Of a stretch of 44,757 nucleotides of DNA, positions 4,063 to 28,219 are shown piece after piece. The position numbers and the translations under genes were made by a program. The notes under the pieces are model-generated. The model was not told the origin of the DNA and made no database searches. It saw only the letters and a program-made list of their open reading frames with translations. The stretch spans positions 1 through 44,757 of IMG/VR virus record IMGVR_UViG_3300048121_000408; one strand, written 5' to 3'. The stretch is from a virus. Numbering within the stretch: position 1 is the stretch's first letter; each line of letters opens with the position of its first letter.

Positions 4063-5802
4063 ATGATGATTTTCAATAACAACAACCCACGCTCGTTGCA
4101 ACGTGAACTTCAAGGCGTGTCCAAGGGATTGGGCAACGCCGAGGTCGAGACAATCTTTTCGGGATCAGGTGCGAGTGCCGCACGCTCTACGATCTGGTTG
4201 CCTACCATGCCCGCTGACGCAACGCTGACGGACGAACAGATGCGTGTGTTTCGTGGGTATCACATCCACGAGGTCGGTCACATCTTGTACACGGACGATA
4301 GCGCATGGGAGAATGCCGTGCGTAACTACCAGTTCGAGAACATGGTGTGGAAGAAGAACGTACTCAATGCGCTTGAGGACGTGTTCATCGAACGCAAGAT
4401 CAACGAAGCGTACGCAGGTGCTAAGCACAATCTTGAAGAGACGGTTGAGCGTGTGTTGGCGAAGAACTTGCAGCAGATCAACGACGCGGGACACAAGACG
4501 TCGCCCGACGAATTGCCGTACGTGATCTTGCAGATGTGCCGCAAGCGTATGGGGTACAGGTCACAAGCTTTGGATGATTACTTGGATCAGGTGAGCGTCG
4601 ACATGCGTGGCATTGCGTCAACGTGGGTGCCGCATGTTCTGGCGGCGGACAGTACGTCACGCTGTGTCGAGTTGACCGAAGAGATCGTTGACGTGATCGA
4701 GCAGATGGAGCAGCAGCCAGAGAGCGATCAACCCGAAGAGGGCGACGGTCCTGGGAATGGAACAGGTCAGGACGAGGGTCGCGAACGCAAGGGCATCAAC
4801 GAGAGCGAAGAAGAGGACAGTACGCAAGAAGACGAAGAGGGTACGCAGTCGAACAATGCGACGAGCAACCGTGCGGATGGCGAACTGAAGCTTGACGATC
4901 TGATTAACAACACGCTTGAGGACATCGTCGAAGAAGAGGCGAAGACGGTTTCGTCAACGTCCGACGACCCGTCGTACGAGTTGCCGCACAGATCGCCTGA
5001 TATTGTGGATACGATCTACCGTGCGGGTATTCATGAGGATCACATGGATCGACTTGGCAAGGTGTACGACGATCACAAGGCGAAGCTTGGCAAGCAGTTG
5101 CGCAAGCGTTCGTCGTCACTCGCACGTGTGTTGTCCGCACAGGAGAACGAGTTCTGGTTCGGTGGCAAAACGCATGGGCGTCTGGATCGCAACCGCATGG
5201 TTGGCGTGGTGACTGGCGAAGAGAACATCTTTGCAGAGCGTATCACGCAGCAGACAGCGTCGACGAGCGTGATGGTCATGATGGACCAGTCGGGCAGCAT
5301 GAACTTCAATCATGCGAAGCGTGCGTTGATCGTGTTGAACGAAACGCTTGCGCGTTCTGGCGTGCCGTACTCGGTGATCGGGTGGTCAACGGACACGATG
5401 CAGATGCTCAAGAGCTTCAAGCAGAAGGGTTTGAACGAGAGTGTGCGTCGGCACATCGGTGGGTTCGGTGACTTCTCTGGCGGCACTGATCCGTTCCCCA
5501 GCTTGATACGTGGTTACGAGGCGTTCAACGAGGGTTCGCAAGCAGCGCGTCGTATCATGCTGTTCTGTTCGGATGCCGAGTTCTACCTGACGTGTTCGCA
5601 TCGCATGGCGAAGCTCAATGCAGAGATGGAACAGCATGGGTTCGAGGCGTACGGCATGTTGATCGGCAACGGCAACCCGCATTCGCTTGAATTAGCGTTC
5701 CCACGTGGGATTGTGGTGACGGACTTCCGTCGCATGGCAGAGACGCTGTTGAAGCAGCTTGAGCAGTTGCTTGCGAAAGGTGCGCAGCGTGCAGTTGCCT
5801 GA
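4063..5802 (+). CDS. CobT-like VWA-domain protein with HEXXH motif (579 aa)
   Basis: This is the partner of the preceding AAA+ gene. Near the N-terminus is HEVGH (residues 69-73), a zinc-metallopeptidase-type HEXXH seen in phage CobT-like proteins. Residues about 213-275 are a very acidic low-complexity linker, usual in CobT. The C-terminus is a von Willebrand factor A domain with the metal-site motif DQSGS (408-412) and a later GGTDP (T of the MIDAS). In chelatases the VWA subunit docks on the AAA+ ring through Mg2+. Whether HEVGH is catalytic is not known. AAGGA lies just upstream; two adjacent ATGs (4063, 4066) are possible. No other cobalamin gene is in view. Confidence 0.85.
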   Translation: MMIFNNNNPRSLQRELQGVSKGLGNAEVETIFSGSGASAARSTIWLPTMPADATLTDEQMRVFRGYHIHEVGHILYTDDSAWENAVRNYQFENMVWKKNVLNALEDVFIERKINEAYAGAKHNLEETVERVLAKNLQQINDAGHKTSPDELPYVILQMCRKRMGYRSQALDDYLDQVSVDMRGIASTWVPHVLAADSTSRCVELTEEIVDVIEQMEQQPESDQPEEGDGPGNGTGQDEGRERKGINESEEEDSTQEDEEGTQSNNATSNRADGELKLDDLINNTLEDIVEEEAKTVSSTSDDPSYELPHRSPDIVDTIYRAGIHEDHMDRLGKVYDDHKAKLGKQLRKRSSSLARVLSAQENEFWFGGKTHGRLDRNRMVGVVTGEENIFAERITQQTASTSVMVMMDQSGSMNFNHAKRALIVLNETLARSGVPYSVIGWSTDTMQMLKSFKQKGLNESVRRHIGGFGDFSGGTDPFPSLIRGYEAFNEGSQAARRIMLFCSDAEFYLTCSHRMAKLNAEMEQHGFEAYGMLIGNGNPHSLELAFPRGIVVTDFRRMAETLLKQLEQLLAKGAQRAVA

Positions 5803-8331: not shown

Positions 8332-9348
8332 TTATAAAGCTGCAACAGCCTTGATATGATCGTCGAGAGTTGTGTTCATGTAGCGCACAACCATCTTCAA
8401 ATCTGTGTGTCCCAGAAGGTCGGCAACGACTTTGACTGGAACGTTCTTGCGGCACAGGTTCGTAGCGAACGTGTGGCGCAATGCGTACATCCCAACATCG
8501 TCAGGGATGCTCGTCTTTTCTCTGGCTTTGGACCAGTGCTTTGACAGTTGATTGCTGTCGATTATTGGTCTTCCGTTGAGCGTAAACACTGCGGTCTGTT
8601 GCGGTGGTTCGCTCCACGGTATCACCATCTTAGCGTTGGGATGCAGAGGTATTGTGCGGGAACGTGTGCCGCCGCCTCTGCCCTTCTTGCTGTGAAGGGT
8701 GACCAGATCACGATGCCAATCAATGTCCGTGAACTGAAGGTTGATAGTCTCGACTGGACGTGCGCCACTGTACCGTAAGAAGGTACAGAAGCGTCGTACG
8801 TCGGGATGGAGTTCTTCGAATATTGCGGCGATCTCCTCGTCCGTCAGTGTGTCCGTGCGGTGTGGATTGTCTGCGGGTTTGTCGAGACGAATATATTCAC
8901 AGTGTCCTAGCTTCGCACCAAAGTTGATGATGCTTTGTAGGGATGTGAGCGTACGTCGTATCGTACCGTTAGAATGTCCACGTGCTATGTGGTAGTCAGC
9001 AATGTAGTCTTCGATTGCCTCGACTGTTAGTGAGCGTATTGGCATGTCACCAAATTCGTCGATGAAACGTGAGACGTTTTGCTGTGTGGTCTTTCCTGAT
9101 CCAGTTGACCGTGAGCGTAGGTATTTCTTCGCTACGGTAGAGAAGGTTGTCTGTGCTGCTGAACCCTTGAGTTTAGAAGCAAGACTTACTTCACCAGACA
9201 GGATGCCCATTTCGTATTCGCTAAGTCGTTGCTTGGCTAGGGATCGGTCTTTGGTATGTAGGCTGTGACGAATACGCATTCCTTGGAACGCACCTTCGGT
9301 ACGGTACATGCCGTTAGACTTTTCCTTTACGAGTTTCAGGAAGCCCAA
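8332..9348 (-). CDS. int: Tyrosine site-specific integrase (338 aa)
   Basis: The enzyme integrates and excises the phage. The catalytic set is visible: Arg197 in SGARPVE, Lys221/222 in HSKKGRGG, Y-x-x-R-H at 288-292 (ALRHTFAT), His314 in LLGHTD and the nucleophile Tyr323 (VVRYMNT). The first residue of the usual H-x-x-R box is Tyr288, as in many relatives. Residues about 70-150 form the SAM-like core-binding domain; the first 60 are an arm-binding-type region. The start is TTG preceded by GGGGGGTC, overlapping the regulator gene by 13 bases. attP lies just downstream. This makes the phage temperate. Confidence 0.96.
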   Translation of the reverse strand: MGFLKLVKEKSNGMYRTEGAFQGMRIRHSLHTKDRSLAKQRLSEYEMGILSGEVSLASKLKGSAAQTTFSTVAKKYLRSRSTGSGKTTQQNVSRFIDEFGDMPIRSLTVEAIEDYIADYHIARGHSNGTIRRTLTSLQSIINFGAKLGHCEYIRLDKPADNPHRTDTLTDEEIAAIFEELHPDVRRFCTFLRYSGARPVETINLQFTDIDWHRDLVTLHSKKGRGGGTRSRTIPLHPNAKMVIPWSEPPQQTAVFTLNGRPIIDSNQLSKHWSKAREKTSIPDDVGMYALRHTFATNLCRKNVPVKVVADLLGHTDLKMVVRYMNTTLDDHIKAVAAL

Positions 9349-9920
9349 TTTTCGACCCCCCTTTCTGTCTGTGCTGCGTACAGAGGTGCATATTGATCTG
9401 GGCTGCTAAAGGTAGTCGCCCATTCTAGGGGGATGCCGCCGCTTAGTTTTTGGTACTCGTCGGGGTCAGCCCTATTTAATATGTCACCGCCGTGCATCGC
9501 TGCTTGGCCTCGTGTTTTTACGCCAATCTTTTTACAGACTGATCGGACGTGCAGCTTAACTGTGTTCTCGCCAATCCCCATGATGGGGGCGATGTCTTGG
9601 TTCCGCAAACCTTGAATAAGAAGCTGCAAGACGACATGTTGTTTCGTCGTCATGTTTCGCAACAGAGATAGTTCTGCTGCATTTAAATCGTCCGACTGGA
9701 CAACCTTGTTCGCGGAACCACTACTCATGCTGATTATGTGTTGCAGTACGATGTCGACCTTGGCTTCAAGCCTTGCGACGTCGAACCGCAAACTTTCGTT
9801 TAGATTGGGCATTTGAGTTTGATCCTTGATGTTAAAGTTGTTGCCCTCGATCTTCGGGGGTGCCTTATACTTGCGCAGACGCAAACCATTTGTCAAGTTA
9901 GTTGTGTTAAAGTTGTTCAA
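9336..9920 (-). CDS. LuxR/NarL-type transcription regulator (194 aa)
   Basis: A LuxR_C/GerE helix-turn-helix lies at about residues 90-145: LTTKQ-type opening (MTTKQHVVLQLLIQGL), NQDIAPIMGIGENTVKLHV and VCKKIGVKTRGQA. No autoinducer-binding or receiver domain is present; the N-terminus is a 36-residue basic piece and a predicted coiled coil (LRFDVARLEAKVDIVLQHI). The TTG start has GGGGGGAC upstream; an ATG at 9812 with AAGGAT is the alternative. It is co-transcribed with the integrase from a strong promoter, so it likely controls integration or lysogeny. Whether it senses a host signal is unknown. Confidence 0.85.
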   Translation of the reverse strand: MNNFNTTNLTNGLRLRKYKAPPKIEGNNFNIKDQTQMPNLNESLRFDVARLEAKVDIVLQHIISMSSGSANKVVQSDDLNAAELSLLRNMTTKQHVVLQLLIQGLRNQDIAPIMGIGENTVKLHVRSVCKKIGVKTRGQAAMHGGDILNRADPDEYQKLSGGIPLEWATTFSSPDQYAPLYAAQTERGVENWAS

Positions 9921-13240: not shown

Positions 13241-13268
13241 GCTGTCACCGTTAACCGTTGTACTGTTT

Positions 13269-13297
13269 TCTATACGCAACACATAACACGATAACAA
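13269..13297 (-). promoter_or_regulatory. Promoter of the lysis-side unit
   Basis: Minus-strand TTGTTA (13297-13292), 17-base spacer, TATAGA (13274-13269). The spacer ends in ATGTGTTGCG, and the GTGTTGCGTATA run closely resembles the promoters at 2337 and 15814. GTTGTAC and GTACAAC flank the site about 45 bases apart. Confidence 0.6.
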
Positions 13298-13317
13298 CTT
13301 TTGTACAACTAAGGGTG

Positions 13318-13345
13318 TTGACTTTTTCGACAAAGACGATAAAAT
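13318..13345 (+). promoter_or_regulatory. Plus-strand promoter into the non-coding region
   Basis: TTGACT, 16-base spacer, TAAAAT. Back to back with the minus-strand promoter. No protein gene lies downstream before the terminator at 13625, so a transcript from here would be non-coding and would cross the repeat region and the RNA candidate. Confidence 0.5.
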
Positions 13346-13500
13346 CGCAAGCGACTTGCAAGCGAAGGTAAGCGAGATCGCCCCGAAGGGACTTCGGGTC
13401 GATTGAGCGAGACAAGCGGTAAGCAAAGGCGGGCAGCGATTTTATCGAAATCGGTACGCAAAAAAGTACGCAAAAAAAGTTTGCCAAATAACTCTCAAGG
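13337..13500. repeat. Repeat-rich non-coding region, possible replication origin
   Basis: A perfect 12-bp inverted repeat (CGATAAAATCGC at 13337-13348, GCGATTTTATCG at 13436-13447) encloses three AAGCGA copies spaced 11 and 10 bases apart (13349, 13360, 13370), variants GAGCGA, AAGCGG and AAGCAA (13405, 13414, 13421), and a hairpin CCCGAAG/CTTCGGG (13382-13398). An AT-rich tract with two GTACGCAAAAAA copies follows (13454-13478). Iteron-like spacing, dyads and AT-rich DNA near the primase-helicase gene fit an origin; the same bases could also fold as RNA. Confidence 0.5.
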
Positions 13501-13514
13501 AAGTGTAAAAAAGG

Positions 13515-13543
13515 TTGTGCAATAGTTGTCTATGCGCTACATT
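13515..13543 (+). promoter_or_regulatory. Promoter of the structured RNA candidate
   Basis: TTGTGC (13515-13520), 17-base spacer, TACATT (13538-13543). The expected start falls around 13549-13551, at the base of the closing stem of the RNA candidate. Confidence 0.45.
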
Positions 13544-13652
13544 TAAGGAGCAGAGATATCCTCCCAGTACGCTCTGCCATCTCCCAATGGTAGCATGTTC
13601 ACCTCACAACAAGCTCCTTACACTAAGCCCCGCTAACGCGGGGCTTTTTTTT
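13544..13652 (+). ncRNA. Candidate small structured RNA
   Basis: An 8-bp closing stem TAAGGAGC (13544-13551) with GCTCCTTA (13613-13620) encloses three small hairpins: AGAG/CTCT (13552-13575), CCAT/ATGG (13577-13590) and TGTT/AACA (13596-13611). This gives a four-way, cloverleaf-like shape. A strong intrinsic terminator follows at once and a promoter precedes it. The region lacks a credible open frame. The lengths do not fit a tRNA: no T-loop consensus, no D-loop GG, an 8-base last loop. It is therefore an unassigned small RNA, possibly regulatory and convergent with the primase-helicase gene. Folding was done by eye. Confidence 0.45.
13625..13652 (+). terminator. Strong intrinsic terminator
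   Basis: AAGCCCCGC-TAAC-GCGGGGCTT followed by eight T residues. It faces the + strand although the only gene near it is on the minus strand, which is the main argument that a + strand RNA is made upstream. Its T run touches the stop codon of the primase-helicase gene. Confidence 0.92.
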
Positions 13653-15597
13653 ACAGGTTTGCTTTTGCATTTGATACGTGGCTTTCTATATGCTCTTGCC
13701 TCAAGTGCTTAGTCCAGTCAGCCACCACGCTTACAGGCTTACCAACCTTGTTAGATATTTCCCTGTCAGACAGGGGTGGCATGGTTATACCCTCGCTGTT
13801 CGTCCAAGGCTGCGCAGCTTTGATAGCACGCTGCTTGGCTGTGCTTTCCGAAACGACACGTACCTTCTCTGTGTTCTCGTCTTCTAGGAAAGCGATGTAC
13901 ATGACTGGCTCGTGGGCGTCGCTCCACTCTCGAACCTTCCCGTAGCGAAGCTCCATGCAGACTTGCAGCCTCTCACTTGGTGTGCGTACTGGTGCAGTTC
14001 CCAACATCGTGTACGGCGTCCGTGGTATGTCCCCGTCGTAGATGCCAGCCTTTACGTCCGCTGTTTCCTTATCAGCATATACTTGCGTCACCTTGATCTG
14101 GGTTTCGAGTACGGTCAACTGGTTCGAGCTTCCCGCCTCACGACCAGACCTACCCCCATCTGCTGGTTTGTTGGAATGGTGTACAAGTATAACAGTCATA
14201 CCCGCATTACGGAGTGTAAGGGCAAGCTTGTTTATGTTGCCCCACTCTTCTGCGCTATTCTCTTGTAGGCCAGACCAAGCTGTACGGATCGTGTCGATCA
14301 CAACTATCTCTGGATTGTTGAAGTTAATCCAACTTTGCAGGTTGTTGATGCCAGCGTCTTCTTTCAGGTTCATCATCTTGTCGTCTATGAACGGCGTCCA
14401 TATCATAAAGCGACCCTCTGCGTCGCCAAATGAATTGCGTGACCTCGTAAGAAACTTGGATATGTTCTGCTTGCTGTTCTCGAAATCTAAATAGAGAACG
14501 CGTGGCTTCTTGTGGATATCGAACGGCCCGAACGAAGACACACCTGCCGACGCTGCATATAGTAAGTGACGTATGAACATCGACTTGCCGTGTCCAGAGT
14601 ATCCATGAACCTGAATGATCGTACCTGTGTCGGGTATGATCGGGTCGACAAAGTACTTTATCTTGCTCGCTTCCTCGGCAAGACGGTCAGCATCAAATGT
14701 TGTGATTGGCTTGAAGCTGTTTGGCTCTTGCTTCGGCTCTTCGACCTTTGGCTTTTTATCTTCCTTTGCGTACGCATGGTCGATTACGCTTTGGAACTCC
14801 TTACTGTCAACCTTATGCGGTTCGTAAAAGAACTCGGCAACGTACTCGATCATGGAAACTTCGCAGACTTCTCGCGTGTGTCCCTGCGCTGCCAATTCAC
14901 CAGCCAAGCTCACAAGCATCTGATGACGATTGTCACCAACACCTGCCATAAGTTTGCGGCCTGTCTTCTCGACAAGCTCTCTCGTTGTTTCAACTACACC
15001 CTTCTTTATCTTGATGTGTGCCAAGGAAAGATTGCCGAACTTGAAGTCATCGAACGATACAACATTGCTTGGCTTATCTGTGCCGTAATTTTTGACTGGA
15101 TACACTGGGACATCATCCCAATCGTCGCCCCTTATCTGCGTATAGTTTGGGGTGGGTGGTACAAGTGCAATTCCCTTGTGGGCTTTGCGGTCCAATCCCT
15201 TTACTACATCTCTAGGCCACTCGACACCGTCTGCGTTGCTCCACGTCAGTGTCTTTATATGCCCCGCACCTTTGGGCCACTTAAAGTAGAAGTGCTTGCC
15301 TCGCTTTGTTTGAACAGCCCAAGGCGTCTGTGTCAGGCCAACTTCCCTAGCGTAAGCTTCGGCCTCCTCGTTATCACAGTCGACAACAAGGACGCCACTA
15401 AGCTCACCTGTCACAATCCCAACGTAGCTGTTCGGAAATGTTTCCCACCATTGTATTACTTGTTCTTCGGTAGGGAACTTCCCTTCGTCATAAAGTTCAC
15501 CCCACTTTACGACTGGCCTCTTTTCGTTTGGGTGGATTGGAACAACCCACCAACCTTCATCCAGCATCTCCAACGCTGTATTCAGATACTCGCTCAC
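13651..15597 (-). CDS. Primase-polymerase/helicase fusion (648 aa)
   Basis: The N-terminal domain is a Prim-Pol (bifunctional primase/polymerase, PF09250 type): GWWVVPIHPNEKRPVVKW, VLVVDCDN with Asp73 and Asp75, and RGKHFYFKWP with His102. The C-terminal half is a RepA/DnaB-like hexameric helicase ATPase (AAA_25): Walker A GYSGHGKS near residue 335, Walker B-like EIVVIDTI, and VILVHHSNK. The protein should prime and unwind at the fork. The start GTG with GGGAG six bases before is preferred to an upstream ATG lying deep inside the HTH gene; the two genes then overlap by 41 bases. A possible origin lies just past its 3' end. Confidence 0.9.
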   Translation of the reverse strand: MSEYLNTALEMLDEGWWVVPIHPNEKRPVVKWGELYDEGKFPTEEQVIQWWETFPNSYVGIVTGELSGVLVVDCDNEEAEAYAREVGLTQTPWAVQTKRGKHFYFKWPKGAGHIKTLTWSNADGVEWPRDVVKGLDRKAHKGIALVPPTPNYTQIRGDDWDDVPVYPVKNYGTDKPSNVVSFDDFKFGNLSLAHIKIKKGVVETTRELVEKTGRKLMAGVGDNRHQMLVSLAGELAAQGHTREVCEVSMIEYVAEFFYEPHKVDSKEFQSVIDHAYAKEDKKPKVEEPKQEPNSFKPITTFDADRLAEEASKIKYFVDPIIPDTGTIIQVHGYSGHGKSMFIRHLLYAASAGVSSFGPFDIHKKPRVLYLDFENSKQNISKFLTRSRNSFGDAEGRFMIWTPFIDDKMMNLKEDAGINNLQSWINFNNPEIVVIDTIRTAWSGLQENSAEEWGNINKLALTLRNAGMTVILVHHSNKPADGGRSGREAGSSNQLTVLETQIKVTQVYADKETADVKAGIYDGDIPRTPYTMLGTAPVRTPSERLQVCMELRYGKVREWSDAHEPVMYIAFLEDENTEKVRVVSESTAKQRAIKAAQPWTNSEGITMPPLSDREISNKVGKPVSVVADWTKHLRQEHIESHVSNAKANL

Positions 15598-15787
15598 TGT
15601 TTTCTCCCATGAAATATTGATCGAAGCTGACCCAAGGGAATGCTTCTTTGATACGTGATAGGTAAGCAGAAGACACACTGCCACGTCTTGCCCAACCATA
15701 TGGTACGGAACGTCCTGTATTTAGACGACGTGACACCTCCCTTGCGCCCCCCAAGTCGTTAATTAAACTTTCGATGTCAAAGGTCAT
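15557..15787 (-). CDS. Small Cro/CI-like HTH protein (76 aa)
   Basis: AGAGGA precedes this ATG by 8 bases. The sequence has a compact helix-turn-helix (LGGAREVSRRLNTGRSVPYGWARRGSV, residues about 12-38) with a YLSRIKEAFP helix, typical of a Cro-like or CI-type DNA-binding protein without a cleavage domain. It is the first gene under the divergent promoter at 15814, so it can control itself and the recombination operon opposite. It is the best local candidate to bind the GTTGTG/CACAAC-type operators. Its 3' end overlaps the primase-helicase start. Confidence 0.75.
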   Translation of the reverse strand: MTFDIESLINDLGGAREVSRRLNTGRSVPYGWARRGSVSSAYLSRIKEAFPWVSFDQYFMGENSERVSEYSVGDAG

Positions 15788-18896: not shown

Positions 18897-19050
18897 CGTA
18901 AGTATCGACCTTTTATTCAAGGCGATCAAGCAGTCGAGGACCGCAGAGACAAGAGCGATCTTATCTCGTGCGGTTTTTTACTTGAAGCAGAAACAGGCCA
19001 AGATGACCGAGGTGCCGATTGAAGAAATCGACCCTCGACCTTTTGACTAG
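18871..19050 (+). CDS. Small hypothetical protein (59 aa)
   Basis: GGAGC lies 7 bases before this ATG, inside the end of the DUF6378-like gene, and fixes the start over one 12 codons upstream. The product is a helical, charged peptide (IDLLFKAIKQSRTAETRAIL), ending PIEEIDPRPFD. It is the last gene of the recombination operon. Its TAG stop shares the CTAG with the stop of the giant late gene coming the other way. Function unknown. Confidence 0.6.
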   Translation: MTPERNEVDVSIDLLFKAIKQSRTAETRAILSRAVFYLKQKQAKMTEVPIEEIDPRPFD

Positions 19051-22000
19051 CGTTTAGGCTCACCTGCGAGCGTATCAACAATCGTCTCGCGTACACCACT
19101 CGTCTGACCGATAAGTGGTACACGGCTAACGATCTCGCGTACTGCTGCGCGTGGCTTGCCATTTGACCCCTCGCCCATGATAGCATTCTCTCCAGCTTGC
19201 ATACCGCCAGCAAGAATTGTTTGTGCATCATGAAGTACGCCAAGTGATGGACCAAGCAACATTTCAGTAATACGCTGCGCACCATAAGCCCCATTGTCTA
19301 GTTGTGATGCAGTGTCGTACATAAGCGATCCTATCAAACCAAGACCACCCATTTGCATTAGACCGTCACGATACCAACCAAGTGCTAGTGCAACACCTTC
19401 GTCGTCGCTGATGCCGTAATCTTTTAAGAACTCAAGTCGTCTGTCGCGTACTGCGAACTCTCTGTTCTCTTCACCACCACGACCTTGAACCACGTCCTTT
19501 GCGCCGACAACGCCAGCACCAACAACAGGTGCGCCAGCGAAGTACATAAGAGGCATAAAGTTCTTGTGGTCTTTGGCTTCCTTATAAACGGTGTAACCCA
19601 TACGCGTCATCATCAGTGGGAAAGACTTCAACTGGAATATCATCTGACCAATTGGTGACTGCGCCCACAGTGGAATGTCTAGTGGGTTTGGCGTAAAGAT
19701 TGTTTCGTTTGCGAACCTGTGCATTGCACCTGCAACTTGGTAGTACATCTGATCCACGTCAGCAGATGACCCACTGCGTAAGATGCGCTCGATGTTCATT
19801 CCTGGTTGTTTGTACAAATCACCTAGACCGTACTCGTCAAGAACGCGACGGGCTTGGCGTCCAGCTTTTGTGTTTGGCTTGCGTACTGCAATCTCTTGCT
19901 GTGACTTGAACCACTCGTAAGATACCGCTGCCGATATATCACGCATTGTGTTTGTCCAGTCGGTCAAGCCGATTGCTGTAAAGAAGCCAGCAGAGAAGCG
20001 TGTCGTGTCCATACCGAATGCGCGAGACATACGCTCTTGTACAATGTTCTGCGTAGATGCGCCGACGTTGCGTATCATTTCGCGATACGCTGGTCCTACA
20101 TCTGGGTCGACCATCCACTTGCGGTATGCCTCTGTAGATGAACGCAAGCTACCACTTCTGATAAGCGGCAAGACAACGTCACCCAATGACGATAGCGTCA
20201 CGAATGGAAGAAGCGTCACACTGTTGAAAGATCGCAGCCAAGATGATGGTTTCTCAAGGTGCTTCTCGAAACTTGCATTGTAGACAGGTTTGCGAGCAAC
20301 GGCCTTGAACAAGTTGTCAGCTTCCTCAACCATATGAGATTGAGGCATGTAATCTTTGTCCAGACCTTTGGTGTCCGTTAATGCCTCCGCAATAGCACGT
20401 GCGCGGAAAGAGAAGTTCTTGCGCATCTGGTCAGCACCAGAACTCAAACTGTCTGGTTCGACCATAGACATGATGTCTTCGTGGATTTCATCTACCGATG
20501 CACCATCATGCGCTTTCTGTGCTAACTCTTTTGCTTTTTTCTCTGCAATCATCTGTCCTTCTGGACCACCTTTTTGGATTGGTGCCATGAAGACATTTGA
20601 TTGGAAGATGGCATGTGCGCCTTCGCCAGCAACTTCATCTTGCGTATTAGATGGGTCTATGAACAGCTTGTAATCCTTGCGCAGAACCTTGTTTGAACGC
20701 AACAATCTTGCGATAGCGTCTGTGCCGCCATTCATTACAGATAGATAGTCGAAGTACCCAAAACCACCTACGCCAAATCTATCAGCAATGTCGATGCGTT
20801 GCTCCACACTGTCTGCGTACTTGGCACCGATAACCATAAGATCGTTCTCTAAGAACTTAGCAAGGTTGTTATCTGGATTGCGCATATCTGTGAACTGTGC
20901 AGCCCAACTTTCGTCAAGACGAATTAGACGCTGGTAGTCGACATGATCTACGCCACGCTCACCACTTCTGTTGAACGCATGTGCGTCACCAACCCATACA
21001 CCGTCTTCGTGAATGAGACGGTCAGCTATACCTTCAGCTTTCAAACGTGCTTGCTGTGGTTTCAGCACGGCCCCTCGCTCTGCGTGTTCTGCTGTGAAGT
21101 ACTTGGATAAAATATCCACAAACCCCTCACGGTCAGCCTCGATCAAATCGCGACGCCAGACTTGCGGGACATAGTTCTTTCGAATGTTCCCCACGTCATA
21201 GCCAGAAGAGACAAGTCTATCGCGAGCCTCCTTGAAGTAAGTACGCATGTACTCGTGAATTTCACGCTCTTGCGATGTAAGCTCTGAAACTCTGCCCTCA
21301 TTGCGGAGCGCACCGATAATCCTCAAATGACTACCAATAGGCATTTTGCGTGTGGGTGGTGGGATGCGAAGCATAGAGCCTATGCTTTCTCCGACATTGT
21401 ACGCATACAACATCTCACCAAGACCGTTTTGAAGCCAACGTTTCATCCCGTTTCCGCTGTCAGGTAGCTTGATAAGCATACGTTGAAGGGGTCCAAGGAA
21501 CTGACCAGTACGCAAGGCATAACGCTCAAAGTGGCCTGCGCCCGCATCGCTTGGCTCGAAGAACTCGGCTATCGAACGCATTCCAGAACGGGCTAGACGT
21601 TGAGCATTGTTGCGTACCAAGCCAAACTTGGCGACACGGCGTATCTCTCTTCCTTCATTCGGAGTGATCTCTTTCTTACGCTTGATCTTTGCAAGTATGT
21701 CAGTTGTTTTCTTAGGCATACCAGCAATTTCAAGTGCAGAAAGAACGTCCTCGAACGCTTGGTCCCCATTGTCGTTTGCAATTTCCATGGCGTCAATCAC
21801 ATGTGGTACTGGATCGCTTGGCATGTTTTCGTTAAATGCCATTTCTGGTTCATCGAACAAGGCAGCGCGAAGGTCACGCACATCGGTGTCATTGAGCATG
21901 GTTTTCTGCCCATTGATATTAATGCTTGTGAAGCCCATGTCACGCATAATTGAAGTCAGCTTTTGCTCACCACCTGCTGCGTCCTGTAATAGACTTAGCA

Positions 22001-25000
22001 TTTCAGATGGCTTGTACGAACCACGCATAGCATCAAGGATCGCAGCAGATTGTGACATTCCTACAGTCATGTCATCTGCCTCGCGAATTGCACGAGAGAG
22101 AACCTTAACAATGCCATCTGATGGTATCATATCGCGTTTGAAGTTGGCGGGCTTTGTATCCCTGATAAGAACAGGTGTAGACATGTACTTGTCTGGCACA
22201 CCCATTTCAGCAAGCTCTAAACGAAGTGCTTCTTCTTCGTAGTATAACTGCTGAATGCTGTTGCGAGAGCCTTGGCGTGCGCGAAGTGTGTTAATGTTTG
22301 AACGAACAGTACGAAGTTCATCAAGCACGTCACGCACTTCGTCACTTAAATCGTTCATAGGCATTCTTGAGATTTTATTAAGTGGTGTTGCGTCCACCCT
22401 TATACCAGAACGCAACGGCCCTACATTGCTTACGTCCACATAGTACGGGACAATGTCGCCGTCCTTCACAAAGTCTTGCATTGCGCGGATTGTGTTAGGT
22501 GACGCTTGCTGTATGTAGTCAGCCGCGAAGTCTTCTGCAAACTCTGCTGGAACGTCGTCTATGAACTTGTTCTTTGGTGACGTTGGATCAAATCTGGATG
22601 TATCTGCCAACATGTTTCCGTATGTCATTAGAGGAGCAAAGTTTCTACGAGCATTTGGCTTTGCAATAAGACCATTTAACACATACGCAACGCCCTCTCT
22701 CATGGATGTGCGTACATCGTTTAGAACATCGAACATATGCTCTTTCGCGAAGTCCTCGTCCACAGTATCCAAAACCGACGCGGCTCTCTTTGGAACTTTC
22801 ACACCTGCATCTTCCGCAACCAAGCGAGCAAGAACTTCAGATGGATCATACCCCACCGCACCAGTGGCACGACGAAGTGTTTCCTTTTGCGCTGCTGGCA
22901 AAATGTTTGAGTTATAAACATATCTGCTGACAGTTTCTAAAGAGTTCATAATGTCGTCAGACTTTGTGACTTCACCTGCAATTTTGCGTACGTCATTCCG
23001 TAGGTTTTTGAAACTTTCGGAGGTGACCTTGGGGGACACTTCCGCACCAATGTACATAAGTCTTGCAGCAATCTTACGTGCTGTTGACTGTAGTTCGCTA
23101 GTGCGGTGTGTAATCGCACGCAATGCGTTTCTAGCTGTGTAAGGCAGGGAAGACGGAATGCTTGGGTCTTCCCCAATATCTGCATCCATCATCTTTTCTG
23201 TTTCGATAGCCCTAAAGACTAGGCTGTTTGTAACAACGTTCTTCTCACCACGACGCTGTAGTTCCCACTCGATTGCACGTGCAATGTCTGCTGCGAACTC
23301 ATACACAGGGGTTTCGTTAGAAAGCGTATCGGGCGCATTACGCGTCATTGTGATCGCTTTCGTGTAGTTCTGAATAAGCTCTGGCGTACGCATTGCCTTT
23401 ACTTCGTTCGTGATGTTCTTGTCAGCAACAGGTGTTGCGTTAGGCATCGAACGAATAAGGCCAACAATGTGACTGCGAAGCTTTTTAGATTGCTTTGTTT
23501 CAGCACCATTGTTCAAGCTTCGCTCGTACGCCTCGATTGATGCGTTAATATCAAGCTCGTTTATGCGTACCTTTGGCGCGTCCTTGATGTCTGGTGCTGC
23601 TGTTGTATCCTTAACTTTCTGGCTGTTCTTGATGTTACGACCAGTAGCAGCACGCTTGCGCTTCGCTGCGTTTGCTCTGCCTTTAACACGTTTAAAACGC
23701 TGTGCGCGTTTGATAGTCTCGACGCCGTTAGGAAGTGCTTCACGCCGTGCGATCTCTGTAGATGTAGCCTTAAATTCTGGGATGTCGCCACCCTCTACGT
23801 CCTCGTAGGCTCTGTTCATTGTGGCCTGAACTTCTTTGACAAACTCGTCTAATTGTTCCTTCTCAAAGATGTCAGCGATGCCATCATATACTTCTGGGCC
23901 AAACCCAATTCCGTCGAAGTCCTCTCCGTCTTTGGTTTTGACATCCATCTTAAACTTGCGTGTGACGCTTTCGATGGCCTGTGCTGCCTTTTTCATCTTT
24001 GTATGATGGCGTCCAACTACCGCAAACGCGCCAGAGTACGGACGTAGCGGCTCGTCGTTTTTACGTGCGATGATTGCAGCTTCTTTCTTCGTGGTAGACA
24101 TACCGCGAAGTTCCTTGGCGAAGTCAGCTAAACGTTCGGCTGCTCTGTCTAGGTCTTTGTCATCGTATGCCGCACGTGCTTCGTAGAATGAGTTGCTCAT
24201 TTCTGTGAAGCGAATGCGTATTGCCTTGCCCTTGTTTGTTGTTGGCTCGACTGGGTTCATCACGCTTACGCGTTCTGCTTGAACATCGTCGATGATTAAC
24301 TTTTGGAAAAGTGGGACAAAGTCTTGGTCGATGATCTCTTTGCCCTGTATCTTTTGTACGAAGTACTTGACCAAAGCTGTGACTTTTTCCCAAATGCTTT
24401 GATCTGGTACTGACAGCATGTCGTACTTTTGTGTAATGAATAAGGCAAACTGGTTCGCAAAATACTCGTTAAAGTTTTCAGCAAAGTTTGATGCACCAAT
24501 CATGACTTCGCCAGTCTTGGGATCAACAACCGCTGGAGACTTCTCGATTATGTCTAAAGCTGCATCCTTGTAAAGAACGCCGTTCTCGTCATAAAACTTC
24601 TCGAAACCTTTCAAGAAGTCCAACTTGGTTTGCGTGTCTAAGGCGTTGACCCACATCCAGTGGCCCATCTCGTGTGCCAATACAAATTCTGGATTAAATC
24701 CTGTTTCGCCAGTAATGCTCTCATTTGCAAAGTTGACGTTCAACATTATGGCATTTGACTGGCCTCTATGGAACTTGCCTGTTGATGCCACAAAAGCATT
24801 AGTGTTTGTGGTTGGCACGAACTTTGGCGCATTGCCATCGTCTGGTATAACCGCACGCAAAAGCTTTTCAAAGTTTGCTTTTGCGTTTGCTGGCGCACTG
24901 TTCCAAGTAACATCTTTTACAAGGCGGATACTGTCTTCAAGATTTGTGCCGTTAAAACGAATGCCGTCAGGAGCAAATATGTCCTGAACTGCAAGAGCAT

Positions 25001-28000
25001 TCTTCATGACTGCCGTGCGGTGAGCAAACGAAAGGTCTTTGTTTCTTACTTTTGCGTTGCTCCCAAAGTTTTGACGCGCATCAAATGGCAGATCAAACAA
25101 GCTACGGTTCAGGATGTGCAGATCATAAACAGTCATTGTGTTGTTTTTGAACGCATCCTTCATACGTGCTGATGCGTCCGCCACGTCGAGCGCAAGCTCT
25201 ACACCTTCGCGCATCATCGCATCTAAGTCATTCAGTTCGATACGCATGTCGCGAGCTTCTTGCTCTGACAATGGGTACTTAATGACTTCAACATCTTTCT
25301 CTAGCGGATTTTCATATGGGTCGTTGCCCTCCCCAAATGGCTCAAAGTCAGCAAGTAGCTTCTTGCGATCTTTGGCTGTCATGTTCGGAGAAACGTACCC
25401 AAGATAGTAGTCGTCTAGGTTTGCACGTGCGATAACTTGGCGTGGGTCTGTCTGCTTCGGTGATATCTTACGGAACCACGTGCCTTTTTTACCAACCTCG
25501 CGTGGGATCATTGCAAAGATTTTGCCGTTGTCGCGTTCGCGTGGGATGTCAGGGATGTCGTCACGCTTGACCTCGCCACCCTGCTTTACGGTCTTCTCTG
25601 CTTTCTGTGCGGTTTGACCTGTTGCAGCGTCTACGGTCTCGATATCTTTTTCTAAATCTTCTAGCGAGCCAGTCTTCTTAAACTTCTCGAACGCGCCATC
25701 ACGAGCCTCGACTGCCTCCGTAGACGTCATTGGCTCTGGCTCTGCTTTGCTTACAGTTGTCTTTGCTGTCTTGCTGCCAACCTTCAGACCCATGGCCTTC
25801 ATAGCCATTTCTTCTGATGAGTATACTTTATCTAGGCGAGGGGAGTAGAAGACTGTTTCACCTTTTGCAGCTTTACCAGCACGTTTGTTTACGCCCTTCT
25901 TCCCGATTACAGTCTCACCGCCGACAGCACGATATGCGTACACATTACGTGCTTTTGTGCCTTCTTTTTTTGCAAGCTCGCGAAGTATGTCTAGCGTCAG
26001 TCTTTGTTTTGGGAACCTATCTTTAGCGTTGATGACAGTGTATCCGTCACCAATTTCAAAACCTCTACGCAAAAACGATTGAGGCACAGACTTAACGATA
26101 CGTTCGCCCGTCTTCTTGTCGAACGTTACAACATCTGTTGTACCAGCAGTCTTAACGCCCTTTTCAAGTGCGTCTTGAGCCTTTGCTGTGCTTCCAGCAG
26201 AACGCTTGGCTGTGGCGTCATCTGTTGACGCATCTACTGTAACTTTTGCCCCACCACTTGTGCGGCCCTCAATGGTTTTTGTTTCGCCCTTGATGTCTGG
26301 TAGAGTTTCCTCGCGATCCAAAAACTCACGGCGCATCTTTACAACTTCGTCAGCGTTGGCAACGTTGATGCCTCTGCTGTCTGCGTCTGCGTGCATTCCT
26401 AGAAGCTGCCTTAGATAGCGGAATACTTGACTATCAATCTGGCCTTCTTCCAACATGCCACGAATGATGGCATCCATGTTATCCAGAAACTCGCTAGAGC
26501 CTTTGGACATATCCATGATCTTCTCGTACTTGCGTACAGCTTCATCGAATGCGGCTGTGTTGCCGTCAGTACTTTGTGCTGCGTCAGCTACATCTTCTTC
26601 TTGGACGGCGGGTTGTTCAGGTAAGGCTTCGTCGACCTGTTGATCTACCTCGGCTTCCACCTCTGGCTCGGATACTTCATCTGCCGCCTTCGCAGACTTT
26701 GTTAGTTTAGCGTAGGTATCGCGATATAGCTTGCCGCCCTTAGTAACCTTGAGCGATCCATCGTTTACACGTCGTTGCATCTCTGCATCTAGCTCGTCGC
26801 CATCAAGACCTAGCTGCTCTCCAACCCTAGCTTTTTGCTCGTCGTTGACCCAGTCCCACTCTATGGTTTCTTCAGGAACATTTTGTGGGGCGTTACCATT
26901 CGGCTCTAAATCTGTTGAGCCAGTATCTTCGGTGTCAGTCTCTACTTGCGTACTTTCTTGCGTACCCTCTACTTCTTGGGTTGTTTCTCCCTGGGAGCCT
27001 GTTTGACCAGTTGGCTCCTGGGTTGCAGTACCTTGCGTACTCTCTGCTGGTTGCGTATCTGCCCGCTGCTGAAGCTGTAACTCACCACTTGCGAACAGTT
27101 CGTCTGGCTCCATCTCCAGTACTCTTGCCCGCTTTTGTGCAAGGGCGTCGAACTGCTGTTTGACTTGGGATGCGGCTGATGCGTTGCCGTTTGTTGTTTC
27201 GTCTTGGAAACGCTTGGCTAGATCATCTAGCTCAAGGTCCATGTTGTTGACGTACTGTTGGACGGCGGCAATATTTTGCTCGTCTATAGTAAGGTCTGCA
27301 AGTGCTGCCTGACCTGTGTCGATTTCGTTCTGGTCTGTAACGCCAGATAGAGATGAGCTAATCGCTTCGCGTTCACGAGTTATGTAGCCTTGCTCTTGTA
27401 CCAGCATAGAGCCAAGACGTGTATTGTCCCAGTCGCCCAAGCTACCGACACCCTTGGCGACTTCGCCTATGCCTAGCATTGAGCCGCCTTTTACGAGAAG
27501 GCCAGCAGCTAAACCAGAAACGCCAGCGTCTATGATGCCAGCACCCGCCAAACGTGCTACGTCGAAGTCTTCTGATACGCCTTGCGCAATTTCCATACCT
27601 TGCTGTGCTGCATCGAACGCAAGCCCAGTGCCAGCACCGATTGCGGCTTCGCCCGCCGCTGCCTTTTGTATACCTGCTTTCGTAGCTGCTTTAGTCGCTT
27701 GCTCTAGTGTCTTGCCCGCAAGCCTTGCCCCTTGGCCCGCTTTTACAGCAGCACCACCAGCACCAACACCGATAAGGTTAATTGGGTCAGCAACACCAGC
27801 AACACCGTAGTCGATTACCTTATCAAGTACGCCGCCACGAGACGGTGCCTGCGCCCATAGTTTTGAAAGTCTTGATAGCTTCTCTCTACCGCTATCTCCA
27901 GCCGTCGCAAACTCAACTGCATCAAGGCCCATAGATAGAGAGTTGACATCGCTCCAGCGTTTGTCTGTGTAGAACTTGTCCCACATCTCGCTGGTGTTAT

Positions 28001-28160
28001 TAAAGTATACCCCGTTGGCTGCGTAATAGTCGCGAACCTCGGCTATCGCATCTTGGTCAGATAGTAGCTCGTAGCCACTCTTAGAAAGATAGTCGGGTGT
28101 GTTGTTGTCTTGTTGGTTGCGAAACGAACCACTAAGGATACTGCGTGCATTGTCAGCCAT
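19047..28160 (-). CDS. Giant virion-associated multidomain protein with metallopeptidase motif (3037 aa)
   Basis: The start MADNARS has GGAG six bases upstream and is preferred to an ATG four codons earlier. The 3037-residue protein is the largest in the window and the last gene of the late operon. Near the N-terminus is an Ala/Gly-rich region (about 80-220). A Gln/Thr/Glu-rich linker spans about 370-430. HEMGH at residues 1163-1167, with a downstream NFNEYFANQF (Glu1232), is a zinc-peptidase HEXXH...E layout. Long helical parts and an aromatic, hydrophobic C-terminal 600 residues (LLPFVTLSSLGDVVLPLI) follow. Such large polyvalent proteins in podoviruses are thought to be ejected with the DNA; I saw no clear RNA-polymerase or transglycosylase motif. 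Many opposite-strand frames across it are shadows. Confidence 0.8.
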   Translation of the reverse strand: MADNARSILSGSFRNQQDNNTPDYLSKSGYELLSDQDAIAEVRDYYAANGVYFNNTSEMWDKFYTDKRWSDVNSLSMGLDAVEFATAGDSGREKLSRLSKLWAQAPSRGGVLDKVIDYGVAGVADPINLIGVGAGGAAVKAGQGARLAGKTLEQATKAATKAGIQKAAAGEAAIGAGTGLAFDAAQQGMEIAQGVSEDFDVARLAGAGIIDAGVSGLAAGLLVKGGSMLGIGEVAKGVGSLGDWDNTRLGSMLVQEQGYITREREAISSSLSGVTDQNEIDTGQAALADLTIDEQNIAAVQQYVNNMDLELDDLAKRFQDETTNGNASAASQVKQQFDALAQKRARVLEMEPDELFASGELQLQQRADTQPAESTQGTATQEPTGQTGSQGETTQEVEGTQESTQVETDTEDTGSTDLEPNGNAPQNVPEETIEWDWVNDEQKARVGEQLGLDGDELDAEMQRRVNDGSLKVTKGGKLYRDTYAKLTKSAKAADEVSEPEVEAEVDQQVDEALPEQPAVQEEDVADAAQSTDGNTAAFDEAVRKYEKIMDMSKGSSEFLDNMDAIIRGMLEEGQIDSQVFRYLRQLLGMHADADSRGINVANADEVVKMRREFLDREETLPDIKGETKTIEGRTSGGAKVTVDASTDDATAKRSAGSTAKAQDALEKGVKTAGTTDVVTFDKKTGERIVKSVPQSFLRRGFEIGDGYTVINAKDRFPKQRLTLDILRELAKKEGTKARNVYAYRAVGGETVIGKKGVNKRAGKAAKGETVFYSPRLDKVYSSEEMAMKAMGLKVGSKTAKTTVSKAEPEPMTSTEAVEARDGAFEKFKKTGSLEDLEKDIETVDAATGQTAQKAEKTVKQGGEVKRDDIPDIPRERDNGKIFAMIPREVGKKGTWFRKISPKQTDPRQVIARANLDDYYLGYVSPNMTAKDRKKLLADFEPFGEGNDPYENPLEKDVEVIKYPLSEQEARDMRIELNDLDAMMREGVELALDVADASARMKDAFKNNTMTVYDLHILNRSLFDLPFDARQNFGSNAKVRNKDLSFAHRTAVMKNALAVQDIFAPDGIRFNGTNLEDSIRLVKDVTWNSAPANAKANFEKLLRAVIPDDGNAPKFVPTTNTNAFVASTGKFHRGQSNAIMLNVNFANESITGETGFNPEFVLAHEMGHWMWVNALDTQTKLDFLKGFEKFYDENGVLYKDAALDIIEKSPAVVDPKTGEVMIGASNFAENFNEYFANQFALFITQKYDMLSVPDQSIWEKVTALVKYFVQKIQGKEIIDQDFVPLFQKLIIDDVQAERVSVMNPVEPTTNKGKAIRIRFTEMSNSFYEARAAYDDKDLDRAAERLADFAKELRGMSTTKKEAAIIARKNDEPLRPYSGAFAVVGRHHTKMKKAAQAIESVTRKFKMDVKTKDGEDFDGIGFGPEVYDGIADIFEKEQLDEFVKEVQATMNRAYEDVEGGDIPEFKATSTEIARREALPNGVETIKRAQRFKRVKGRANAAKRKRAATGRNIKNSQKVKDTTAAPDIKDAPKVRINELDINASIEAYERSLNNGAETKQSKKLRSHIVGLIRSMPNATPVADKNITNEVKAMRTPELIQNYTKAITMTRNAPDTLSNETPVYEFAADIARAIEWELQRRGEKNVVTNSLVFRAIETEKMMDADIGEDPSIPSSLPYTARNALRAITHRTSELQSTARKIAARLMYIGAEVSPKVTSESFKNLRNDVRKIAGEVTKSDDIMNSLETVSRYVYNSNILPAAQKETLRRATGAVGYDPSEVLARLVAEDAGVKVPKRAASVLDTVDEDFAKEHMFDVLNDVRTSMREGVAYVLNGLIAKPNARRNFAPLMTYGNMLADTSRFDPTSPKNKFIDDVPAEFAEDFAADYIQQASPNTIRAMQDFVKDGDIVPYYVDVSNVGPLRSGIRVDATPLNKISRMPMNDLSDEVRDVLDELRTVRSNINTLRARQGSRNSIQQLYYEEEALRLELAEMGVPDKYMSTPVLIRDTKPANFKRDMIPSDGIVKVLSRAIREADDMTVGMSQSAAILDAMRGSYKPSEMLSLLQDAAGGEQKLTSIMRDMGFTSININGQKTMLNDTDVRDLRAALFDEPEMAFNENMPSDPVPHVIDAMEIANDNGDQAFEDVLSALEIAGMPKKTTDILAKIKRKKEITPNEGREIRRVAKFGLVRNNAQRLARSGMRSIAEFFEPSDAGAGHFERYALRTGQFLGPLQRMLIKLPDSGNGMKRWLQNGLGEMLYAYNVGESIGSMLRIPPPTRKMPIGSHLRIIGALRNEGRVSELTSQEREIHEYMRTYFKEARDRLVSSGYDVGNIRKNYVPQVWRRDLIEADREGFVDILSKYFTAEHAERGAVLKPQQARLKAEGIADRLIHEDGVWVGDAHAFNRSGERGVDHVDYQRLIRLDESWAAQFTDMRNPDNNLAKFLENDLMVIGAKYADSVEQRIDIADRFGVGGFGYFDYLSVMNGGTDAIARLLRSNKVLRKDYKLFIDPSNTQDEVAGEGAHAIFQSNVFMAPIQKGGPEGQMIAEKKAKELAQKAHDGASVDEIHEDIMSMVEPDSLSSGADQMRKNFSFRARAIAEALTDTKGLDKDYMPQSHMVEEADNLFKAVARKPVYNASFEKHLEKPSSWLRSFNSVTLLPFVTLSSLGDVVLPLIRSGSLRSSTEAYRKWMVDPDVGPAYREMIRNVGASTQNIVQERMSRAFGMDTTRFSAGFFTAIGLTDWTNTMRDISAAVSYEWFKSQQEIAVRKPNTKAGRQARRVLDEYGLGDLYKQPGMNIERILRSGSSADVDQMYYQVAGAMHRFANETIFTPNPLDIPLWAQSPIGQMIFQLKSFPLMMTRMGYTVYKEAKDHKNFMPLMYFAGAPVVGAGVVGAKDVVQGRGGEENREFAVRDRRLEFLKDYGISDDEGVALALGWYRDGLMQMGGLGLIGSLMYDTASQLDNGAYGAQRITEMLLGPSLGVLHDAQTILAGGMQAGENAIMGEGSNGKPRAAVREIVSRVPLIGQTSGVRETIVDTLAGEPKR

Positions 28161-28219
28161 CGGGTACTCCATTTAACCTGATGGTCACAGATTAAACGGA
28201 GAGCCGACTTTTATCGTCC

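Follow-up and report, generated by a model that had tools for sequence, protein, structure and literature searches.

Among the small RNAs of alphaproteobacteria near Roseobacter are the CcsR1-4 "cuckoo" RNAs of Rhodobacter sphaeroides and its relatives, the loops of which carry a motif of the CUCCUCCC type. The CcsR RNAs are transcribed together with a DUF1127 gene, under the control of RpoH promoters (PMC10253847). In the AbcR1 and AbcR2 RNAs (alpha-r15), the CUCCUCCC motif is located in the loop of a 5' hairpin, as proven by mutation and compensation, and a second anti-Shine-Dalgarno (aSD) motif is single-stranded (PMC8844928). The NfeR1 RNA (alpha-r14) of Sinorhizobium meliloti and other alpha-rhizobia consists of three hairpins that each carry an aSD motif, has variable stems and silences ntrB (PMC10746234); it represses its targets by base-pairing to their translation initiation regions (PMC10746234, PMC8844928). 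Phages also have genes for trans-acting regulatory RNAs, such as VpdS of phage VP882, which competes for Hfq, and none of the phage small RNAs considered here from a review of them is described as having aSD hairpin arrays (PMC12197685).

Few regulatory RNAs are known in phages of abundant marine bacteria. Here, we describe a predicted small RNA gene in a virus record from IMG/VR, which encodes an integrase, an amidase, a major head protein and a prim-pol/helicase. The window, by which we mean the whole stretch of DNA analysed, covers the record at its full length of 44,757 nucleotides (44.8 kb), one fifth of which is taken up by a single ORF for 3041 aa on the - strand (19047-28172). Judging from sequence comparisons, the gene probably encodes a Rho-independently terminated, trans-acting small RNA of the phage, with aSD seeds that would block the initiation of translation on selected mRNAs.

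The predicted transcription unit and its surroundings

A promoter-like pair, TTGTGC and TACATT with a spacer of 17 nucleotides, had been proposed on the + strand in an earlier sequence-only reading. The pair is present at 13515-13543, with TTGTGC at 13515-13520 and TACATT at 13538-13543; it is weak compared with the E. coli consensus and was missed by a simple scan, but it is conserved in the relatives all the same. The block TTGTRC...ATGCGCTACATT precedes the unit also in the related loci L002-L004 and L006-L008, and variants of the promoter are found before the unit in L005, L019 and L021. Within the window the motif is unique, also when up to 3 mismatches are allowed. Given the usual spacing of 6-8 nt after the -10 box, transcription would start at 13549-13551 and yield a predicted RNA of ~103 nt (13550-13652, + strand), which is syntenic in the relatives. 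The strong terminator of the earlier reading corresponds to an intrinsic terminator (13625-13652, + strand), where a stem-loop with a 9-bp stem and a 4-nt loop (13625-13646) is followed by a run of eight U residues, and 17 distinct loci have a terminator in this position.

The unit had also been described as free of protein genes, as different from a tRNA and as convergent with the primase-helicase gene. In agreement with this, we observed no convincing + strand ORF, ARAGORN found no tRNA or tmRNA gene in the window, and the unit lies opposite the end of the prim-pol/helicase gene (13651-15597, - strand), the identity and extent of which are based on primase/polymerase matches in PHROGs, the alignment of the relatives and the position of the Shine-Dalgarno (SD) sequence. 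The start of this gene is probably GTG at 15597, and the listed start, ATG at 15699, probably makes the gene too long: the GTG is conserved and preceded by UGGGAG, and the upstream reading (15597-15699) contains stops in several relatives. Taken together, the sequence data argue that the discrete unit, with a promoter, an RNA of ~103 nt and a terminator, is real.

Next to the unit is an origin-like element (13318-13447) with the sequence TTGACT-N16-TAAAAT. Its -10 box falls within an outer stem of 12 bp, CGATAAAATCGC/GCGATTTTATCG, and between the two arms of this stem is a long structured stretch. The outer stems in the relatives have changed and still pair, for example GTTACCCTCGG, GGTACAAACGC and GATACAACCGTC. 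This architecture is found downstream of most of the primase relatives searched, including Roseobacter phage CRP-810, and is far more widespread than the small RNA. The element could be either an origin or a structured RNA.

Exposed C-rich motifs and changing stems

The fold of the segment 13545-13655 has a z-score of -5.3 compared with shuffled sequences, and -2.9 without the terminator. When folded from the predicted transcription start, the corresponding values are -4.53, with 0 of 200 shuffles as good, and -2.4, so that the thermodynamic support for the RNA body minus the terminator is modest. The sequence-only reading had envisaged three inner hairpins in a four-way junction, closed by a stem of 8 bp. 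This closing stem is absent from the minimum free energy (MFE) structure computed from the predicted start, its 5' arm (13544-13551) is mostly placed between the -10 box and that start, and in the relatives it retains 6/8 (L002), 7/8 (L003) and 6/8 (L004) standard pairs with no two-sided change. As the closing arm is mostly upstream of the predicted start and decays uncompensated, we have dropped the four-way junction.

In a better model, the 5' hairpin is followed by a segment that is either exposed or weakly hairpinned, then by a third hairpin and finally by the terminator, and the aSD motifs are predicted to be in the unpaired parts. The first hairpin, H1 (13550-13577, GCAGAG/CUCUGC), is present in both the MFE and the centroid structure and has a large loop with the motif aSD1, UCCUCCC (13559-13565), the CCUCCC of which has a mean unpaired probability of 0.87. 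The second motif, aSD2, CUCCC (13581-13585), has an unpaired probability of 1.0 and would be displayed either by a weak hairpin, H2 (13577-13590, CCAU/AUGG), or by a single-stranded segment: H2 has 4/4 pairs in the window and L003, 3/4 in L002, and CUCU/AGAG instead in L004, and it competes with an extension of H3 in the MFE structure, where the CUCCCA stretch is open when folding begins at the predicted start. The third hairpin, H3 (13592-13615, AGC-N-UGUU/AACA-N-GCU), is part of the MFE structure and has the loop CACCUCAC. Before the terminator is CUCCUU (13614-13619), the first two bases of which are inside H3; it is kept in L002-L004 and might be another aSD-like stretch.

Relatives were collected with a primase search (L002-L010), a promoter-plus-CCTCCC pattern (L012-L021) and a primase profile (80 loci). 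The unit follows the primase stop codon on the opposite strand in L002-L004, the primases of which are 91-95% identical to that of the window. Shorter or different units, the loop of which carries CCUCCC or CUCCC, come after the primase gene in L005-L008 (77-78% identity), L019 and L021 (67%), and L036, L038, L042, L040, L047, L051, L054 and L058 (42-49%), and the loops of L006-L008 carry the octamer CUCCUCCC. In L032, L034, L039, L044 and L045, the same place is occupied by folded units of a different build, in which CUCCC is rare or absent; this would look like a replacement of the RNA gene or a divergence past recognition. No unit was seen beside primases of ~40% identity, nor in CRP-810, the closest isolate, which belongs to a type of phages reported to be mostly integrase-bearing and to have alphaproteobacterial hosts (PMC11288001). 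Short ORFs for small lysine-rich proteins follow the primase stop in L049 and L053, where the small RNA is missing. The pattern matches in L013, L016 and L017 were due to chance, and the unit is absent from these loci. In other searches, an exact 18-mer of the unit had no match in viral contigs, a 19-mer had one match in genome contigs (257 Gb), to an Acidobacteria MAG and about at chance level, DNA searches of phage isolates gave two weak matches, both at the terminator area, and a 3'-end pattern and the neighbouring HTH gene revealed no members beyond the contigs already known.

The C-rich loops, which were not mentioned in the earlier reading, are the most conserved feature. While the stems vary, AUCCUCCC (aSD1), UCUCCCAA (aSD2) and CCUCAC (the H3 loop) are invariant in the window and L002-L004. 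For a broader census, we considered all loci retrieved by their primase, rather than by motif, and removed near-duplicates. An opposite-strand terminator was scored within 170 nt of the primase stop, and occurrences of CUCCC/CCUCC were tallied over the 110 nt preceding the terminator. Among distinct loci, the motif was present in 16 of the 17 that have a terminator versus 2 of the 27 that lack one (Fisher 6e-9), and its 35 occurrences in the 17 loci compare with a mean of 3.2 and a maximum of 11 in 2000 dinucleotide shuffles; these loci share ancestry, so the numbers overstate independence and show conservation rather than 17 separate origins. The reverse complement was found in 0/17 of the terminator loci. 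Furthermore, the mean unpaired probability of the motif in 13 units is 0.95 versus 0.47 for other positions in the body, a value reached in 0 of 2000 random placements, even though a G-poor and C-rich motif would tend to be unpaired anyway.

A lack of compensatory changes in the stems of the relatives had been named as evidence against the RNA, and such changes are present in both H1 and H3. Pair 6 of H1 is G-C in the window and L003 and A-U in L004, H1 also grows, another G-C to A-U change in H1 separates L054 from L058, and a U-A pair in H3 is replaced on both sides by C-G in L002. In the lineages examined, the H1 stem changes in sequence yet still pairs. The pairs were counted on arms set by hand from the folds, since MAFFT misaligned the H1 arm of L004, and hence do not provide an independent test.

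These patterns also bear on the possibility that the locus is no regulator, but only a terminator and a promoter that mark the 3' end of the primase unit, or an antisense RNA to that end. The U-run of the terminator overlaps the primase stop codon and the -35 box is weak, as might then be expected. However, the terminator acts in the + direction and not on the primase transcript, and conserved loops on changing stems would need another reason, which makes this explanation very improbable.

The primase mRNA as a candidate target

The SD sequence of the primase gene, UGGGAG (15604-15609, - strand), is complementary to both aSD2 (UCUCCCA/UGGGAGA) and aSD1. The pairing of UCUCCCA in the open segment with UGGGAGA comprises 7 bp at -12.1 kcal/mol, which is tied best for the H2 segment among 50 ribosome-binding sites in the window, where the gene starts were taken from a crude caller and the tied site, at 4318, is an internal GTG. 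A feedback on replication could be imagined, in which the primase-helicase mRNA is the main target and its SD is occluded so that replication is limited, much like the action of plasmid counter-transcribed RNAs. Both the location of the unit, adjoining the primase gene and the origin-like element, and the tied-best pairing are in line with such a control, as is the finding that both loops in L019 pair over 7 bp with their own AAGGGAGAA site. However, across 12 lineages the pairing of the small RNA with the primase site of its own lineage does not exceed that with the sites of the other lineages (permutation p = 0.57), and a specificity for the cognate replication gene, which characterizes plasmid-type control RNAs, was not seen in these lineages. 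Because SD sequences are alike, pairing with the primase SD is expected of any aSD RNA. A role in replication control, as suggested earlier, is conceivable, since the RNA could pair well with the ribosome-binding site of the primase, but the test for co-evolution was negative; feedback through the primase appears unlikely, and we retain the primase mRNA as a candidate target rather than as a conclusion, with its role as a specific target unsupported in the permutation test.

We also observed that positions 54-66 of the small RNA in L047, GUGGUUCUCCAUA, can form 13 pairs, counting G-U, with the SD region of the primase gene in that locus, but this segment is on average only 37% unpaired. Likewise, the G runs AAGGGGGGU and CUGGGGGGACAA, located upstream of uncertain TTG starts of the integrase gene (9348) and the next ORF (9920), pair well with the H1 loop (ORFs 8332-9348 and 9336-9920).

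A putative translational repressor compared with known RNAs

Comparison with the relatives lends good support to the earlier notion that this is an unassigned small RNA, equipped with a promoter and a terminator of its own and possibly acting on other RNAs: the predicted transcription unit is discrete, the exposed seeds are conserved, and the stems vary but pair. We hypothesize that the RNA is transcribed from its own promoter and ended by the intrinsic terminator, that the hairpin loops and single-stranded segments present the seeds UCCUCCC, CUCCC and CCUC, and that through these seeds the RNA would pair with the purine-rich ribosome-binding sites on selected mRNAs and thereby block translation initiation. 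Hfq would probably be bound at the U-rich 3' end. The targets are most likely mRNAs of the host along with some of the phage, the primase mRNA being one candidate. The complementarity of the loops to SD sequences accounts directly for the aSD motif, and nothing in the sequence indicates a particular protein. Since the motifs are complementary to SD sequences and alphaproteobacterial small RNAs of like design are known, a block of ribosome binding is the most likely mode of action.

More tentatively, this may be a family of phage-borne aSD-loop RNAs with fast-evolving stems and hairpin numbers. Temperate phages that infect marine alphaproteobacteria would use such RNAs to mimic host regulators of the NfeR1, AbcR and CcsR type and to reprogram the translation of the host, with transport genes as one example, in infection or lysogeny. 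An RNA that is kept beside the primase gene in the design of a host repressor would offer a handle on changes in host metabolism or the timing of replication, and the loops of the predicted small RNA are seeds that can be tested directly.

An Rfam search, as had been suggested with the first reading, assigned no family: the window had no match at the gathering score, and five relatives (L003, L021, L040, L047 and L051) had none up to E = 1. A relaxed threshold for 13250-13660 yielded OmrA-B at 24 bits versus a gathering score of 40, plus others, all far below gathering and mostly overlapping the terminator. The alpha-r14 family is included in Rfam, and its covariance model had no match in 13250-13660 at the gathering score and up to E = 10.

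The phage RNA is about the same size as NfeR1 (~103 and 115 nt), and both have variable stems and aSD motifs in unpaired regions. However, NfeR1 contains three identical copies of CCUCCUCCC, whereas the phage RNA has three shorter motifs that differ from each other, UCCUCCC, CUCCC and CCUC, and, unlike NfeR1, it is phage-encoded beside a primase gene and has no match in Rfam. The 5' hairpin with a CUCCUCCC loop in the AbcR RNAs resembles that in the phage locus L006, but the window lacks CUCCUCCC, and the second motif of the AbcR RNAs, UUCCCCUC, was not seen in the units examined; the AbcR genes are in tandem on the chromosome, and the phage RNA has no sequence-structure match to them. Co-transcription as in the CcsR RNAs is not indicated, there being no gene between the phage promoter and the RNA. 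A phage-borne aSD array was not found in searches of open-access literature, which is weak evidence given that scope. Considering this along with the lack of Rfam matches for the window and the five relatives, we regard the phage RNA, on present evidence, as a new family of a known kind of RNA.
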